A stretch of 64,000 nucleotides of DNA from Alistipes sp. Zagget8 (lineage in GTDB: Bacteria; Bacteroidota; Bacteroidia; Bacteroidales; Rikenellaceae): the NCBI GenBank assembly GCA_001941065.1, contig MSHJ01000009.1:1-64000 (forward strand), in the 5' to 3' direction. The notes beneath the pieces are model-generated. The model was not told the origin of the DNA. It did no database searches and saw only the letters and a program-made list of their open reading frames with translations. Shown here piece by piece: positions 3,317-56,579 of this stretch (within the stretch, counting starts at the first letter, position 1; each line of letters begins with the position of its first letter). A program made the translations under genes and the position numbers.

Positions 3317-3943
3317 TCAGAAGGAGATACCGACGCGAATACCGAAATTGTTGATGTTGTTGATCGAGTAGGTCAGCACATCGCCGCTGTTGGTGGCGTA
3401 GCTGTAATAGAGCGCCACGTGGAAGCCCAGCCGGTAGTCGGGGCGCGGGAAAATCGAGATGCCGATCTCCGGCGAAACGAAGAATCCCCACGTGTCGGTG
3501 TACTGCTTGACGACATAATAGTAGGACGACATTTCAGCGTAGCTGGCGCCCAGTTTCAGCCCGGCATAGGGTTGGAATACACTGTCGGTAAGCCAGTTGT
3601 AACGTCCCGTAACACCGAACGGCAGTTGGAACAGGGCGTGTTTCTGGTTGGTGGTCAGCGCCGAGCCGCCGCCCAGGTCGAGCGTCTGGCGCGAAATGCT
3701 TTGCAGATTAGTCTGGTAGGAGATGAACGGACCCACGGTGATGGCCGGCGTCACGAAATAGCCGCCTTCGAAGTTCATGCCCCAGCCCGAGGTCTTGTCG
3801 GCGAAATCGGAGCCCAGAGGCACACCCAGCTGCCAGTCGATGTTGATGTAGGTGTTGGGAAATATCTGCGCCTTGCCCGGCAGGGCCGCGGCGAGCATAA
3901 CGGCGCAGACAGCGATGGTTTTAATGTATTTCGATGTTTTCAT
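3317..3943 (-). CDS. Outer-membrane beta-barrel-type protein
   Basis: Signal peptide MKTSKYIKTIAVCAVMLAAALPGKAQ, alternating beta-strand pattern, C-terminal aromatic FGIRVGISF; start taken at the internal Met (cat at 3941-3943). Confidence 0.7.
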   Translation of the reverse strand: MKTSKYIKTIAVCAVMLAAALPGKAQIFPNTYINIDWQLGVPLGSDFADKTSGWGMNFEGGYFVTPAITVGPFISYQTNLQSISRQTLDLGGGSALTTNQKHALFQLPFGVTGRYNWLTDSVFQPYAGLKLGASYAEMSSYYYVVKQYTDTWGFFVSPEIGISIFPRPDYRLGFHVALYYSYATNSGDVLTYSINNINNFGIRVGISF

Positions 3944-3968
3944 AATCGGACGAATTTTTGCTGTTAAA

Positions 3969-4610
3969 CTATTTTGCCAGATAAGGCGACTGCTCGAAAG
4001 CCTGCTCGACGCCGGCGACCGTGCGCTGTTGGTTGAGTTCCGCATCGGAAGTCAGCAGACCGCCGATGAAGCTGTCCCAAACGACGGGCAGTTTCTTGCC
4101 GGTCTCCTGGTCGGCCTCGAGGTCCAGCATCTCCAGCAGCAGCGATCCGGCCGTGTATCCGTAGTAAACGCTGTAAGGATAGTGCCAGCCGACCCAGTCG
4201 CCCCAGTATCCGGGAGCCCAGTAGTAGGGGTAGTACCACCACCAGTAGGGATAGTCGTAACCCACGAAATAGGTCACTTTCTGGACATAGCTGAGCTGGA
4301 TACCCACGTTGGCGGCATCCTTGTCATCGGTGCGGGTATATCCGGCATCGTTCATCCTGCCGGCGACCGTGTTGATGATCTCCAGGGCGTCGGCGTCTTT
4401 CCAGTATTCGGTTTTGTCGCTGTTCCCGATCACCAGGATGCTGTCGGGAACATAGTAAGTGTCGATGGCGGCGAAATCGGTGTCGGTGTCGTGGGCGGTG
4501 TAGACCAGATAATCCCGGTGAAGGTCCGACGTCGAAGGCTCCTTCTGACACGCGCAGAACGCAACTGCAATGAGTGCGAACGCAAAGTAACGTAATTTTT
4601 TGACGTTCAT
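3969..4610 (-). CDS. DUF4136-type lipoprotein
   Basis: Lipobox AFCACQK; Tyr/Trp-rich YDYPYWWWYYPYYWAPGYWGDWVGWHYP region typical of DUF4136. Confidence 0.75.
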   Translation of the reverse strand: MNVKKLRYFAFALIAVAFCACQKEPSTSDLHRDYLVYTAHDTDTDFAAIDTYYVPDSILVIGNSDKTEYWKDADALEIINTVAGRMNDAGYTRTDDKDAANVGIQLSYVQKVTYFVGYDYPYWWWYYPYYWAPGYWGDWVGWHYPYSVYYGYTAGSLLLEMLDLEADQETGKKLPVVWDSFIGGLLTSDAELNQQRTVAGVEQAFEQSPYLAK

Positions 4611-18722: not shown

Positions 18723-19781
18723 ATGCGGACAAAGCGGGTAACCATAAAAGATATAGCCACCGAGGCGGGTGTTTCGATCGCCCTGGTCTCGTTCGTGATG
18801 AACAACAAGGCCGACGGCAAGGATACCTACCGCGTGAACAAGGAAACCGCCCAGCGTATCCTGGAGGTCGCACAGAAGCTTAACTATCAACCCAATAACG
18901 CCGCACGCACCCTGCGCAGCGGCAAAACGAACACCATCGGCGTCATCGTTTCGGACATCTCGAACAAGTTTTTCGCCGACATCGCCCGGTGCATCGAGAA
19001 TCACGCCTATAAACATAAGTATACCGTGCTGTTCGGCAGTACGGACGAGAATCCGCAGAAGCTGGAGAACCTGATCGAGGTCTTCCGCAACAAGGGTATC
19101 GACGGTCTGGTGGTCGTTCCGTGCGAAGGCGCCGACGAAATCATCCGCGACATCGCCCGCCAGAACATCCCCCTCGTGCTGCTCGACCGCGAAGTCTCCG
19201 ACCTGGAGGTCAGCAGTGTCGTGCTGAACAACCGCCGCGCCGGGTACGAAACGACCGAGGCGCTGATCCGGCGCGGATTCACCCGCATCGAGATGATCTC
19301 CTACTCGATGGGCCTCTCGAACATTCGCGAGCGCGAAGAGGGCTACCGCCGCTGCATGCAGGCGCACGGGAAAGGCGAAAACGCCGTCATACACCACCTG
19401 CGCCACGACAAACTCGCTAAAATCGAGGATCTTATCCGCGAGGCTCGGCAGCGCCGCGTCGAGGCTTTCCTCTTCGCCACCAACACCCTGGCAGGTCAGG
19501 GACTGAGCGCCATCTTCCGCAACGGCTGGCGCGTGCCGCAGGATTTCGCCATCGCCTGCTTCGACACCAACGAAGCCTTCGACATCTATAAAACCGCCAT
19601 CGCCTACGTCCGCCAGCCTATCGAACAGTTCGGGACCGAAGCCCTCGACCTGCTGATCAAGAGCATCGAACAACGCGACAAACCCGGGAGTTGCACGCGC
19701 ATCGTGCTGACGCCCGAGATCGTCGAGAGCGCCCCCGAAGAGGAACTGCGGAGTGCGGAACAGGCAATAGCGGAAGGCTAA
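18723..19781 (+). CDS. LacI-family transcriptional regulator
   Basis: N-terminal HTH KRVTIKDIATEAGVSIALVSFVMNNKADGKDTYRVNKETAQRILEVAQKLNYQPNNAARTLRSGKTNTIGVIV and periplasmic-binding-like effector domain. Confidence 0.96.
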   Translation: MRTKRVTIKDIATEAGVSIALVSFVMNNKADGKDTYRVNKETAQRILEVAQKLNYQPNNAARTLRSGKTNTIGVIVSDISNKFFADIARCIENHAYKHKYTVLFGSTDENPQKLENLIEVFRNKGIDGLVVVPCEGADEIIRDIARQNIPLVLLDREVSDLEVSSVVLNNRRAGYETTEALIRRGFTRIEMISYSMGLSNIREREEGYRRCMQAHGKGENAVIHHLRHDKLAKIEDLIREARQRRVEAFLFATNTLAGQGLSAIFRNGWRVPQDFAIACFDTNEAFDIYKTAIAYVRQPIEQFGTEALDLLIKSIEQRDKPGSCTRIVLTPEIVESAPEEELRSAEQAIAEG

Positions 19782-19831: not shown

Positions 19832-21884
19832 ATGAACCCGGCAACCCATCTGCTTCACAGGGCAAGCGCCCTCGCCACCTGCAGCGCCGCACTGGCCGCC
19901 GCACTCCTCGTCACGACACCGGCATCGGCCCAGGCGTCACATACGGCCGATCGCAAGGGGGGGGGGTGACGCCCCGTCCCAATCCGACCCGGACATCCTG
20001 CGATACAACAATCCGGACCTCACGGTCGACCTGGGGGTCGGACTGTGGGGTATTCCGCTGCCCGTCGACTACGACGGCGACGGGCTGAAAGACCTGCTGG
20101 TCTCCTGCCCCGACCGCCCGTACAAAGGGCTCTATTTCTTTAAAAACATCGGAACGCCGCGCCATCCCCATTTCGCCGCCGCAGTGCGCATCAGCGAGAA
20201 GGGGATGAACAACATCCGCCTCTCGGAGGTGGACGGCAAACCCTACGTCCTCTCGAAGAATTTCGAATATCCCGATTTCTTCAAGGCCCCCTACGCCAAA
20301 AAACGCCGCCTGCACTACGAAGGCGAGGAGCTCGGCGCCACCTACAACAAGTCGCGGAGCAATATGTGGAACTACGTCGACTGGGACGGCGACGGCGACA
20401 AGGACATCGTCGTGGGCATCGACACGTGGGACGACTACGGCTGGGACAATGCCTTCGACAGCCTCGGACGCTGGACCCGGGGTCCGCTGCACGGCTACGT
20501 CTACCTGCTGGAAAACACCGGCAAGGGATACGTCAACCGCGGCAAGGTGGAGGCCGCAGGCGCCCCGATCGACGTCTACGGAGCGCCGAATCCGTGTATC
20601 GCCGATTTCGACGGCGACGGCGACCTGGACCTGATCTGCGGCGAGTTCGTCGACGGACTGACCTGGTTCGAGAACATCGGAAGCCGCACGGAACCCCGCT
20701 TCGCGGCGGGACGTCCGCTTGCGAATAAACACGGGGAGATTCGCCTGCATCTGGAGATGATCGTCCCGGTGGTTTCGGATTTCGACGGCGACGGACATCC
20801 CGACCTCATCGTCGGCGACGAGGACGGCCGCGTGGCCTGGGTGCGCCACACGGGGAAGGTCAAAAAAGGCATGCCCCAATTCGAATCGCCCCTCTATTTC
20901 ACCCAGCAGGCCGATCTGGTCAAATTCGGAGCCCTCTCGACCCCCTGCGCCTACGACTGGGACGGCGACGGACGGCAGGACATCGTGGCCGGGAACTCGG
21001 CCGGCGAACTGGCTTTGATCCGCAACCTCTCGGGCGGCGATAATCCCGTATGGGACGCCCCGCGCCTCTTCACCGTCAACGGTGCACCCATCCGCATCCA
21101 GGCGGGGGAGAACGGCTCGATACAAGGTCCTGCCGAACGCAAATGGGGCTACACGGTGCTCTCCGTGGCCGACTGGGACGGCGACGGGCTTCCCGACATC
21201 ATTGTCAACTCGATCTGGGGCAAGATCGAATGGTTCCGCAACCTCGGCAGCAAAGACGGACTGAAACTCGCTCCGGCGCAGCCCGTGCGCGTGGCCTGGG
21301 AGGGCGAAGCCCCCAAACCCGCCTGGAACTGGTGGACGCCGGAACCCGGCACGCTCGTCACGCAATGGCGCACGACGCCCGTGGCGACGGACTGGAACGG
21401 CGACGGACTGACGGACCTCATCGTCCTCGACCAGGAGGGCTACCTCGCCTATTACGAACGTTTCCGCACACCCGGCGGCGAGCTGCTGCTCCGTCCCGGA
21501 CGCCGCATCTTCCACGCCACGAACTGCTCGCTTTACAGCGCCAAGAACGGGGTGGTGGAGGCATCCGAAGGGCTTCTGCGCCTGAACGACGGGATCGGCG
21601 GGCAATCCGGACGCCGCAAAATCTGCTTCATCGACTGGGACGGCGACGGACGGCTCGACCTGATCGTCGACAGCCAGAACGCCGCCTGGTTCCGCAACGT
21701 CCGCGAGGAGCGGGGCGAGGTGTGGTACGAATACATGGGCAACGTCAACGAACGCATACTGGCCGGCCACACGACCTGCCCGACACCCATCGACTGGCGG
21801 GGCGACGGTACGCCGGAGCTGCTGTTGGGAGCCGAGGACGGCCATTTCTACCGAATGGCGAACCAGCAAAAACAGACGCGATGA
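19832..21884 (+). CDS. Secreted FG-GAP/VCBS-repeat protein, interrupted by a frameshift at a G10 tract (OFF frame as given)
   Basis: Signal peptide MNPATHLLHRASALATCSAALAAALLVTTPASAQA from ATG 19832 ends at TGA 19967; body APSQSDPDILRYNNPDLTVDLGVGLWGIPLPVDYDGDGLKDLLVSC... continues in another frame from 19971; repeated DWDGDG-type motifs. Confidence 0.85.
19957..19966 (+). repeat. Homopolymeric G10 tract at the frameshift junction
   Basis: Direct reading of tcgcaaggggggggggtgac. Confidence 0.9.
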
Positions 21885-22756
21885 AAACGGGGCTCACGAC
21901 TCTCTGCGCCGTATTGCTGACCGTTGCCGTATCGCAGGCCGCCGAGCCGCTGCACGTCAAACTCTTCCCGGAGGGAACCCCGACGAAGAGCGGACTGGAG
22001 GAGCAACCCGAAGGCGTGAACGACAAGGGCTACTGCATCCGGGTCAGCGACCCCGAGCTGCTGGTCTGCCTCCCCGATCCGGCCCGCGCCACGGGACAGG
22101 CCATGCTGGTCGTGCCGGGCGGGAGTTACGAGAAGGTCTGCATCACGCACGAGGGTTACAAGACCGCCGAATGGCTCAACGAACACGGCATCGCCGCGAT
22201 GATCCTCAAATACCGAATGCCGAACGGCCATCCCGGGATTCCGCTGGAGGACGGCGAGCAGGCAATGCGCGTCATCCGCCGGAACGCCGCACAATGGGGT
22301 GTCGATCCTCACAATGTGGGAATTATCGGCTTCTCGGCCGGAGGCCATTTCGCCTCGACGCTCATCACGGAATACACGAGCGAGGAGACACGCCCCGATT
22401 TCGCCGTCCTGGTCTACCCGGTCGTCTCGATGAAATATTCCAGCGTCCGGACCCGGGAGAACCTCCTCGGAGCACGCAGCGAAGAGGAGGCATTGCGCAA
22501 ACGTCACTCCACTTTCGGACAGGTGCACGAAGGGATGCCCGAGGTGATGCTCCTGCTGTGCAACGACGACAAAGCGGTGGTCCCGGACAACTCCATCGCC
22601 TTCTACCGGGCCCTCAACCGCCGCAGAGTGAAGGCCGAAATGCACATCTATCCCGAAGGAGGCCACGGCTTCTGGATGCGCGAACGCTACAGGTACGGCG
22701 ACGAAACCTATCCGGCCGTCATCCGGTGGATCGAACGACACAAGACAACCAACTGA
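21881..22756 (+). CDS. Secreted alpha/beta hydrolase (polyacetyl/xylan-esterase-like)
   Basis: Signal peptide; VVPGGSYEKVCITHEGYKTAEWLNEHGI, NVGIIGFSAGGHFAST (nucleophile elbow GFSAGG), GGHGFWM. Confidence 0.88.
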   Translation: MKTGLTTLCAVLLTVAVSQAAEPLHVKLFPEGTPTKSGLEEQPEGVNDKGYCIRVSDPELLVCLPDPARATGQAMLVVPGGSYEKVCITHEGYKTAEWLNEHGIAAMILKYRMPNGHPGIPLEDGEQAMRVIRRNAAQWGVDPHNVGIIGFSAGGHFASTLITEYTSEETRPDFAVLVYPVVSMKYSSVRTRENLLGARSEEEALRKRHSTFGQVHEGMPEVMLLLCNDDKAVVPDNSIAFYRALNRRRVKAEMHIYPEGGHGFWMRERYRYGDETYPAVIRWIERHKTTN

Positions 22757-36060: not shown

Positions 36061-38019
36061 ATGAAGATTCCGATCAAACTCCTGTTTACGGCGGTTCTCG
36101 GCCTATGGGCCGGGACCGCCGTCCAGGCAGCCAACCCCGAGGTGCTGGAGTGTCGTCTGCACGTAACCGGCACCGGGGATTTCGCCCTGCACAGCATCTC
36201 GGCCCGAATACTCGGGACAGCCTTCCTGGACGATCCGAAACACCCCGACCTGTTCATGCTCGGCGACAAATATTACAAGAACGAATGTTTCCGTTACAGC
36301 TTCGTCGACCGGGGAGAGGACGGCGTCCCCGTCTTCGAACGCAAAGAGCCGGTGAAGCTGCCCGACGGCGCCCTCACCAAAGTGCGCATCCGTCAACGCG
36401 GAAAACAAATCTATCTCTTCTGGTGCTCCGGCGAAGAGCTGAAATACGCGGAATACGATGCGAAAAAGGCGGCATTCCTCGAAAAAGGCGCTTTGCCCCT
36501 GCCCGAAATGAAATGGAACCCGAAAAACATCACGGTCGAACTGCCGGATGACGGTTCGCTGCGGGTCAATGCATCCTGCACCATCGTATCTTCGACGAAA
36601 GCCCCGGGACACTGGCGTGCGGCCGACTATTTCCCGTACGACGGGACGGGCGTATGGCGGGGGCGTTTCGGTGCGGACGGATTCTTTTCATTCAGTTACC
36701 CGAAATTCCCGGGCGGCAAGGCTTCCGAACCGCTGTTCATCGCCGCCTCCGAAAAAGAGATTTTCGGGTCCTCGAACGGCATCGACGTGATCCGCTACCC
36801 GGGACAGGACGGAATCATCACCGGCTCGTCCTACGGAGGGCTCTATTTCCTGAAACGAAAGGCCGACGGAACCTGTGAGCCCAAACGCCATATCGTGGAT
36901 GAAAAGTTCAACGCGCTGCGCCATCCGACCATTTGGCCGACGCCCGTCGTCTACCCGAACGAACAGGGAGAGTACGTGGACTTGCTGGCGACGGGCGAAG
37001 GCGGGGCCTTCTATTACCGCTTCACGGGAAAATTCACCCCCGACGGACGCCCCGTATATGCCAATCCCGTCACCCTGAAAGAGAAAAACCCGGCCCTGTA
37101 TGCCGGTTCGCTCGTCACCCCGACACTCGTCGATTGGGACGGCGACGGCCAACTGGACATCGTTTGCGGCAATTCTGCGGGACATATCCTCTTTTTCCGC
37201 AACACGGGCACGAACCGGAATCCCTCGTTTCACGCGGGAACCTACCTGAAGGCCGGCGGCGAGGTCATCCACATTCAGCCGGGTTACGGCGAGGATATAC
37301 AGGGACCCGGCGAATCCCGGTGGGGTTATGTCGGCGCCAATGTATTCGACTGGAACAACGACGGGAAACCCGACATCCTGACCAACGATTCACGCGGCAA
37401 ACACACCGTGTTCATGCAGGGCGCTAACGGCCTGGAAGCGGGGAAATCCATCTATCTGAACGATCTCGAACTCCACGGCATGTGGCGCTGCCGTCCGGGC
37501 GTCGGGACGATGTCCGGCAAATACGTCTATTTCACGCTCGACGACCAGGACGAAATCCACCGCTATTTCCGGGAGGACGACTACAACCTCACCGACGGCG
37601 GCAAGATGAAGCTGACCGACGGTTCGTCCATCAAGGCCAACTGGCTCGAAGCCGGCGGCAAGGGACGCCTGCGGTTCGAGGTCGTGGACTGGGACGGCGA
37701 CGGAGTCAAGGACCTGCTGCTGGCGACCAACATGCACCACATGATTCCGGATACGGTCCGGGGTATTCCCTGGAGCCATCCCAAACCGCTCCGAGGCGCC
37801 ACGCTGCTGTTCCTGCGCAATGCGGGCACGGAAGCGGACCCGGTCTTCGAATTCCCGAAACAACTGAAATACAAGGGAGAACTCGTGCGTTTCGGCCACC
37901 ACGGATGCGGAGCCTCCACCGGCATGATCGGTAAAATCACGGACGGACTGCCCAACGTGGTCGTCGGCGACGAACGCGGAAGCCTTTATCTCCTGGAACG
38001 TGAATATTTAACCTGGTAG
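36061..38019 (+). CDS. Secreted FG-GAP/VCBS-repeat protein
   Basis: Signal peptide; DWDGDGQLDIVCGNSAGHILFFRNTGTN, DWNNDGKPDIL, DWDGDGVKDLLLATN. Confidence 0.88.
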   Translation: MKIPIKLLFTAVLGLWAGTAVQAANPEVLECRLHVTGTGDFALHSISARILGTAFLDDPKHPDLFMLGDKYYKNECFRYSFVDRGEDGVPVFERKEPVKLPDGALTKVRIRQRGKQIYLFWCSGEELKYAEYDAKKAAFLEKGALPLPEMKWNPKNITVELPDDGSLRVNASCTIVSSTKAPGHWRAADYFPYDGTGVWRGRFGADGFFSFSYPKFPGGKASEPLFIAASEKEIFGSSNGIDVIRYPGQDGIITGSSYGGLYFLKRKADGTCEPKRHIVDEKFNALRHPTIWPTPVVYPNEQGEYVDLLATGEGGAFYYRFTGKFTPDGRPVYANPVTLKEKNPALYAGSLVTPTLVDWDGDGQLDIVCGNSAGHILFFRNTGTNRNPSFHAGTYLKAGGEVIHIQPGYGEDIQGPGESRWGYVGANVFDWNNDGKPDILTNDSRGKHTVFMQGANGLEAGKSIYLNDLELHGMWRCRPGVGTMSGKYVYFTLDDQDEIHRYFREDDYNLTDGGKMKLTDGSSIKANWLEAGGKGRLRFEVVDWDGDGVKDLLLATNMHHMIPDTVRGIPWSHPKPLRGATLLFLRNAGTEADPVFEFPKQLKYKGELVRFGHHGCGASTGMIGKITDGLPNVVVGDERGSLYLLEREYLTW

Positions 38020-54566: not shown

Positions 54567-56579
54567 ATGAAAAAACCGTTTCTTATCCTCACGGTCCTCT
54601 GCGCCCTGACGCTGCAAAGCCTTTGGGCGGCCCGGCCGCTGCAACACGCACAGCCCATCGCGGCCGGCGGCGAAGAGGGACTCTCCCCGATGTCGTTCGG
54701 ACTGACTTACAGCAACGCCCCGCGCGGATTCGCCTACATCTCCTCGGAAGAGTATCCCGATCTTTTCGTCTTTATCGCGAGCGGGATGCCCGACGCCCGG
54801 GGATTCTGGCGTTGCCCCTACGACCGGACCACGCCGGAGGGCGAACTCGTCTATGCCACACCCATCCGCATAGCCACCCCCTGGGACAAGGAGCAAAAAT
54901 TCCCCTCGCAGGTCCGCATCTTCCAGGACGGCAAGGAGGTCTACCTCCTGCGCCTCTCCACGAAACGCCTCGTCGTCACCCGCTGGGACGGCCGGGCGTT
55001 CACGACGGTCGCCGAAAGCGTGTTGAAGGGAATTCCCTATCCGATAGCGTCGTTCGACTGCATCCGCCGCGGCAAACGCGACATCGAGCTGGCGATTCTC
55101 TGCCACGACGGGCAGTCCTACCGTCCCGAAACGTTCAAAGGCGACCGCCAGTCCTACTACGACGGCGCCGAAATCTACCGCGGGGCGCTGCCCGGCTCGG
55201 GGCTTTTCCGTATGACGCTGGACGCCGGCAACTGGAACCAGATCACCGACGTCGAACAGGTGGGGTGTAGCATGAACCTCGTCATCGGGGCCAGCGAACT
55301 GGCCTGCGTGCGCTCGGCGGACGGCAGTTACGACGGCTACCTCTTTACCAACAAACTGGGAAGCATGAAATTCATCCCCTACCGGAAAAAGATTCCGACC
55401 GGGGGATTGCCGCCGCTCCATGCCATGCGCGACAACGAACACGTCCGCGTACATACGGCTTACAGCTCGCGCGTCATTCCCTATCCCTCGGGCCGGGACA
55501 ACCAACAGGACCTGATTATCGGCGGCGAAGCAGCCATGTATCACTACCGCTTCCTGGGCTCCACGCCCGAAGGGGCTCCGATCTATTCCGACCCGGCGCC
55601 GGTGCTGCAACGCAACGCCCCGCTCTACGGAGGTTCGCTGACGGTGCCCAATGTCGTGGACTGGGACGGCGACGGCGTGCTGGACATCGTGGCCGGCAAC
55701 TCGGAGGGACGGCTGCTCTTCTTCAAAAACCGCGGCACGAACGCCGAGCCTGATTTCGCCCGTTCGGAGGAGGTCTGCGCCGGAGGCAGCCCGATCCTGC
55801 TGCGCCCGGGCTATCACGTCGTGCAGGGTCCTTTCGAGGCTTCGTGGGGCTATCTCTGCCCGACGGTCTGCGACTGGAACGGCGACGGACTGCTTGACGT
55901 CGTGGTCTCGGGTTCACGGGCCAAATTCGAGGTGATGCTCAACCGCGGCACCCGCGAAAAACCCGAACTCGACGCTCCCGTGGCCCTGAGTGTGGATAAC
56001 CTCGAACTTTACGGCACCTGGCGCGTCCGCCCGGCCATCGCCCGGATCGGCGACAGCAACCGCATCGTCATCATGGACAAAGACAACGCCCTGCACATGT
56101 ACCGCCAGATCGACGATTTCAACGTCGAGGACATGGGCAAACTCCGCCTGACGGACGGTTCGCAGATTACCGGCCACAACAATGCGATGGAGTCGCTCGG
56201 ACAGATGGGGCGCGGCAAACTGCGCTTCGTGGACTGGGACGGCGACGGAAAACTCGACCTGCTGATCGGCTCGATCAAGCGGTCGTCGTACCCCTCGCCC
56301 GAGCGGGGGCTTCCCTACAACCGGTTCAAAAAGAAGGAGATCGGTCTGCAGGTCATGCTGCTGATCAACGTCGGGAGCAACGAAAAGATGGTTTTCAAAG
56401 AACCCGTCCAGCTGCAGATCGACGGCAAGGATTTCTACCTCGGCGCCCATTCGAACGCCCCCGAACCCTGTCTGCTGGGCGACACGTCGAAGGGTCCGAA
56501 TCTGGTGGTCGGATGCGAAAGCGGCAAATATTTCTTCTTCGAGCACGACCGGATCACGACCGTCGGAATCGACGACTGA
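54567..56579 (+). CDS. Secreted FG-GAP/VCBS-repeat protein
   Basis: Signal peptide; DWDGDGVLDIVAGNSEGRLLFFKNRGTN, DWNGDGLLDVVVSG, DWDGDGKLDLLIGS. Confidence 0.88.
   Translation: MKKPFLILTVLCALTLQSLWAARPLQHAQPIAAGGEEGLSPMSFGLTYSNAPRGFAYISSEEYPDLFVFIASGMPDARGFWRCPYDRTTPEGELVYATPIRIATPWDKEQKFPSQVRIFQDGKEVYLLRLSTKRLVVTRWDGRAFTTVAESVLKGIPYPIASFDCIRRGKRDIELAILCHDGQSYRPETFKGDRQSYYDGAEIYRGALPGSGLFRMTLDAGNWNQITDVEQVGCSMNLVIGASELACVRSADGSYDGYLFTNKLGSMKFIPYRKKIPTGGLPPLHAMRDNEHVRVHTAYSSRVIPYPSGRDNQQDLIIGGEAAMYHYRFLGSTPEGAPIYSDPAPVLQRNAPLYGGSLTVPNVVDWDGDGVLDIVAGNSEGRLLFFKNRGTNAEPDFARSEEVCAGGSPILLRPGYHVVQGPFEASWGYLCPTVCDWNGDGLLDVVVSGSRAKFEVMLNRGTREKPELDAPVALSVDNLELYGTWRVRPAIARIGDSNRIVIMDKDNALHMYRQIDDFNVEDMGKLRLTDGSQITGHNNAMESLGQMGRGKLRFVDWDGDGKLDLLIGSIKRSSYPSPERGLPYNRFKKKEIGLQVMLLINVGSNEKMVFKEPVQLQIDGKDFYLGAHSNAPEPCLLGDTSKGPNLVVGCESGKYFFFEHDRITTVGIDD

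Follow-up and report, generated by a model that had tools for sequence, protein, structure and literature searches.

Does a run of ten guanines that separates a signal peptide from the body of a surface protein represent a switch, a broken gene, a sequencing error, or the imprint of a process that acts on the chromosome as a whole? The question is raised by the gene that heads a polysaccharide-utilisation locus in Alistipes sp. Zagget8, located in a 64,000-nucleotide stretch of contig MSHJ01000009.1 that is here called the window. On the basis of sequence comparison we consider it probable that this G10 tract represents a slipped-strand contingency switch in its OFF state, and that it belongs to a genus-wide Alistipes class of runs of at least nine Gs that would toggle mainly between nine and ten.

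The interrupted gene and its locus

The tract occupies positions 19957-19966 of the forward strand, to the base where the preliminary description had located it. Translation from ATG 19832 yields MNPATHLLHRASALATCSAALAAALLVTTPASAQASHTADRKGGG, i.e. a signal-peptide ORF (19832..19969, forward strand) with an OFF product of 45 aa, which is ended by the TGA at 19967-19969 that directly abuts the tract. The body lies in the +1 frame relative to the signal peptide and remains open for 638 codons, from 19968 to the TGA at 21882-21884 (19968..21884, forward strand), and it encodes FG-GAP repeats (Pfam FG-GAP_3, E-value 1e-35). Both the early stop of the signal-peptide ORF and the stop-free continuation in another frame, as described before, were thereby reproduced. 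Within the body frame of the G10 form the earliest in-frame ATG, GTG or TTG is the GTG at 20184, and no alternative start was found there that gives a secreted product. With nine Gs the signal peptide would be in frame with the body and a secreted protein would be made, while with ten Gs translation would stop at the TGA that touches the tract and no secreted product would result. Tract length would, we infer, affect expression, and its changes would be frequent and reversible within the population.

The tract gene directly follows a LacI-family regulator (18723..19781, forward strand; Pfam LacI and Peripla_BP_3; in-frame ATG at 18723, listed ORF from TTG 18702) and precedes an alpha/beta hydrolase (21881..22756, forward strand; Pfam Peptidase_S9/Abhydrolase_3). 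The ATG of the latter at 21881 overlaps the stop of the body as ATGA, and this overlap probably couples its translation to the switch, such that the OFF state would probably reduce the hydrolase as well. The rest of the locus encodes a DHDPS-family enzyme, a sodium:solute symporter, SusC/SusD pairs, GH32 and a fucose-isomerase-family enzyme, together with two FG-GAP paralogs (36061..38019 and 54567..56579, both forward strand). A scan of the 64-kb window recovered no second G/C run of at least 8, which agrees with the earlier remark that these paralogs lack such a tract. The rarity of the run relative to dinucleotide shuffles of the window was rejected as evidence (72 of 100 shuffles match or exceed it); its significance derives from the real run-length distribution in 3.5 Mb and from the occurrence of a tract at this junction in orthologues.

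The same junction in other species

The nearest named orthologues come from Alistipes, which identifies the source as a member of that genus. Orthologues were sought in 180 Alistipes genomes, with one genome per species compared, and 13 were recovered besides that of the source genome (3.5 Mb; our label G000). The nearest relative among the genomes compared, G070 (3.8 Mb in 5 contigs, with a chromosome contig of 3.79 Mb; ~90% DNA identity), has the same start and N-terminus and carries G9 at the aligned tract. It encodes a single intact protein, MNPAILPF...SASAATDIRQASPTTDPKGGGETPAQSDKDILRYNN, and no further frame-changing difference from the source genome is present in the aligned 5' part. 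The fusion of both ORFs by deletion of one G, which had been predicted for Zagget8, is therefore a naturally occurring form. The preliminary description had also proposed to compare tract lengths between related genomes, and outside G070 both states were found: A. muris (DSM 112343) has an out-of-frame C10 at the junction and its sister species G007 an in-frame C9, the two having in common a ctgaatt-C(n) tract, i.e. a C-type tract of their own, and G169 and G195 likewise have an in-frame C9. The eight other orthologues have no tract at the junction. In a tree of the bodies the tract carriers appear in three separate places, one G-type and two C-type. At ~80 tracts per 3.5 Mb, chance falls far short of explaining why they recur at this one junction. 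The G007 orthologue (L012, ~3700-4000) has in addition two in-frame copies of a repeat encoding ESKILR(C/Y)AQNDN inserted at the signal-peptide junction; the repeat resembles a small dispersed element.

The body has a dN/dS of 0.055 over 499 codons, by which measure it is under strong purifying selection. This bears on the view that the gene is a simple pseudogene, killed by a recent +1 slip that became fixed in the species. In the only available genome of the species the frame is indeed broken, and the absence of an alternative start for a secreted product fits that view too. We nevertheless judge it unlikely, because the downstream decay that had been named as the sign of a pseudogene was looked for and the 638 body codons contain no further lesion, because their dN/dS is low, and because the tract recurs at the same junction in other species. 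It also fails to account for the gene of a histidine-kinase-like sensor (L112 in the source genome, L300 in G070), where a C10 right after the signal peptide leaves the frame broken in both species and the body has a dN/dS of 0.085 despite this; a dead gene would hardly be expected to show such conservation. Genes that are out of frame in both species and stay conserved could also be expected under recoding, that is, steady low expression from the G10 form by RNA polymerase slippage or by +1 ribosomal frameshifting at GGG UGA C, where the TGA directly 3' of the run is followed by C in a poor stop context resembling that of prfB. This we regard as quite improbable, as other out-of-frame members lack a stop there, lengths differ by single units between species, and the natural G9 form needs no recoding.

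A genus-wide class of long G/C runs

The source genome contains 81 G/C runs of at least 9 (64 G9, 15 G10 and 2 G11), as against only 3 G7 and 18 G8, and a 0.86 Mb sample, composed of stretches picked mostly without regard to tracts, contains 16 G6, 2 G7, 8 G8 and 14 G9. That G7 is nearly absent is in keeping with a hypermutable class of the threshold type. An apparent excess of G9 windows in G007 was discarded as an assembly artefact, consisting mostly of long poly-G at contig ends; contigs C32 and C33 of that genome end in poly-G runs of up to ~70 bases, which inflate homopolymer counts.

The 17 runs of at least 10 were read by eye for frame, and ~14 of them lie out of frame in coding sequence. 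The genes concerned include those of three SusC-type receptors, lipoproteins, a glycosyltransferase, an MBOAT protein and Reg_prop/histidine-kinase sensors, the names being derived from sequence motifs and not from family searches. By a mechanical test, which asks for a signal peptide up to the run and a coding body behind it, 19 of the 81 tracts in the source genome and 17 of 79 in G070 lie at a signal-peptide junction, compared with 5.6% of random positions, i.e. tracts are four-fold enriched at such junctions (the automatic calls L148/L310, L270 and L137 are doubtful, involving membrane or overlapping ORFs). The coding G10s examined are brought back into frame by -1 and the six OFF G9 genes of the source genome all by +1, so the toggle would be mainly between 9 and 10. 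The two glycosyltransferase paralogs L099:1500 and L146:1500 both start with MIPKKIH-CWLGGG, the former with an out-of-frame G10 and the latter with an in-frame G9. As is expected of simple-sequence contingency loci, the window gene combines a slippable repeat in the coding region with a frame that toggles by one unit and a body that is intact and under selection. The states at the junctions speak against a switch to some extent: in the source genome 5 are ON and 14 OFF, more OFF than a neutral toggle would suggest.

This high share of out-of-frame genes in one assembly, together with the error-prone nature of long G runs, could indicate that the tract is in reality a G9 and the tenth G a sequencing or assembly error. 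We hold this to be unlikely as well, given that C10 occurs also in A. muris DSM 112343, that most tracts of the same genome are called as 9, that the other large ORFs of the window that were checked are intact, and that long forms are common to independent assemblies, since L112 and its partner L300 are both 10 and L151 and its partner L312 both 11. In the latter pair the frames differ by a flank base and not by tract length.

Altogether 32 of the 81 source-genome tracts could be aligned to G070 stretches, ~29 of them to a tract; as these stretches were mostly selected for carrying tracts, the rate of tract loss is not estimable from them. Many aligned orthologues have exactly 9 in both species. 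Length-discordant pairs (source/G070) are L090 (9/10), L115 (10/9), L118 (10/9), L119 (9/11), L130 (9/10), L138 (10/9) and L141 (10/9), and L090, L115, L118, L138 and L141 are signal-peptide-junction members (L118 by eye). In several orthologue pairs one additional or missing G separates the ON from the OFF form. Two candidate pairs were rejected: L101 and L300 are paralogs, and the alignment of L099 with L314 is to the orthologue of L146. Taken together, the G9 form, the conserved body and the orthologue pairs that differ by one G support the phase-switch reading of the tract that had been put forward from the window.

The class has properties that the switch reading does not anticipate. Most members, read in G orientation, are followed by an AT-rich, WAWTT-like 3' flank. 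The corresponding motif HG9WAW occurs 304 times in 37 Alistipes genomes (61 for the reversed control) and 21 times in 24 other families of the order (11 for the reversed control), and the class is largely restricted to Alistipes. In G070 the tract strands are 34+/3- on one arm and 4+/45- on the other (Fisher 4e-16), which means that 79 of 86 tracts, ~90%, are on the strand expected from replichore polarity. The strand flips at ~1.2 and ~2.9 Mb (contig C5, ~1.205 and 2.93 Mb), where the coding-strand-corrected GC skew flips too, and the G070 counterpart of the window gene adjoins the 1.2 Mb switch. Shorter runs have the opposite lean, with strand fractions of 0.47, 0.40, 0.34 and 0.25 for G3 to G6 as compared with 0.89 for G9, and the spacing of tracts in G070 is over-regular (gap CV 0.73 vs 0.99 for random, P 0.0004).

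GC skew and the direction of ribosomal L3 place the origin of G070 near 1.2 Mb, and on that placement the G form provisionally lies on the lagging strand and its C9 complement on the leading strand. The position of dnaA (G070:C5:2748039-2748245) does not support this origin call, the distance from the gene to the origin-like skew switch being 1.5 Mb and that to the terminus-like switch ~0.2 Mb. A strict search detected no dif-like site near the two switches, the DnaA boxes near them are single ones and uninformative for the origin, no ribosomal RNA that could fix it was found in the stretches searched, and the few tRNAs in the stretches examined are indecisive. One of the few wrong-strand G9 tracts (L296 ~19142, G070:C5:1936142) lies between tRNA-Thr and tRNA-Tyr genes. 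In the source genome the switch points fall at ~64 kb of contig C9 and ~64-123 kb of contig C13, and two are origin-like, one just past the right end of the window and one beside dnaA (C13:94139), which suggests a rearrangement or an unusual origin position.

Polarity, flank and spacing point to one of two things, a polar motif of the chromosome or slippage that is strand-specific. The runs could be primarily a replichore-polar motif (exact G9 plus WAWTT flank), analogous to KOPS or AIMS and serving a DNA-tracking or segregation machine, located where Gly-Gly-Gly or Pro-Pro-Pro is tolerated and breaking genes as a by-product of occasional slips to G10. We consider this possible, if somewhat less than probable. 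The strand, spacing and flank statistics favour it, as does the length of exactly 9 in both species at many orthologues; the tract density in G070 remains flat toward the presumed terminus (~16/15/18 tracts per third of one arm), the enrichment at signal-peptide junctions with mixed ON and OFF states is not explained by it, the window tract lacks the flank, and we know of no protein that binds a G9 motif. Simple contingency loci, for their part, do not predict polarity and regular spacing, so that part of the selection on the runs may be unrelated to switching, and the polar class may have a second or a different primary cause. A tentative synthesis, to which we give slightly less than even weight, is a genus-specific, replichore-polar, exact-G9 motif with an AT-rich 3' flank at ~1 per 30-45 kb, which a dedicated process, be it chromosome organisation or strand-specific hypermutation, would make or maintain and whose junction copies would double as genome-wide G9/G10 secretion switches. 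That runs of this kind interrupt many secreted-protein genes across the genus in like manner would fit a bank of reversible switches.

Relation to known systems

Most of the phase variation known in gut Bacteroidales relies on DNA inversion, and our literature search found no published case of poly-G phase variation in Alistipes or Bacteroidales. If the switch reading is true, a single Alistipes strain would be a mixed population with respect to many glycan-uptake and surface proteins, and such mixtures would be invisible in consensus genomes, where they would be annotated as pseudogenes. The polarity, which is reversed in shorter G runs, points in addition to an unrecognised chromosome motif or strand-specific slippage process. 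To our knowledge, replichore polarity and a shared 3' flank have not been described for the contingency loci of Campylobacter, Helicobacter and Neisseria. Those loci do resemble the Alistipes tracts in that G/C runs in surface genes cause ON/OFF changes by single-unit slips, but they belong to pathogens with proven switching (PMC8355987, PMC5084427). The phase-variable SusC/SusD and capsule systems of Bacteroides are likewise surface systems of Bacteroidales, related to glycan uptake, yet they involve site-specific inversion of promoters and not homopolymer slippage (PMC11868660). AIMS and KOPS motifs have in common with the Alistipes runs their replichore strand bias and genus-specificity, while the runs differ in being nine-base, sparse, on the presumed lagging strand and without the rise in abundance toward the terminus (PMC5993296).

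In the sortase-pilus loci bbr_0113 and bbr_1889 of Bifidobacterium breve UCC2003 a change in the number of Gs fuses ORFs and restores downstream genes (PMC9187656). There, too, the gene that heads a surface operon in a gut commensal consists of a Sec-signal ORF, a G-tract and a body ORF; the differences are that B. breve is an Actinobacterium, that two pilus loci are concerned, that slippage was measured experimentally, and that a genome-wide polar class, a feature of Alistipes, is not reported in the parts consulted (PMC9187656). Poly-G contingency loci are already known, and it is the genus-wide, replichore-polar set of them that is, as far as we have found, new.
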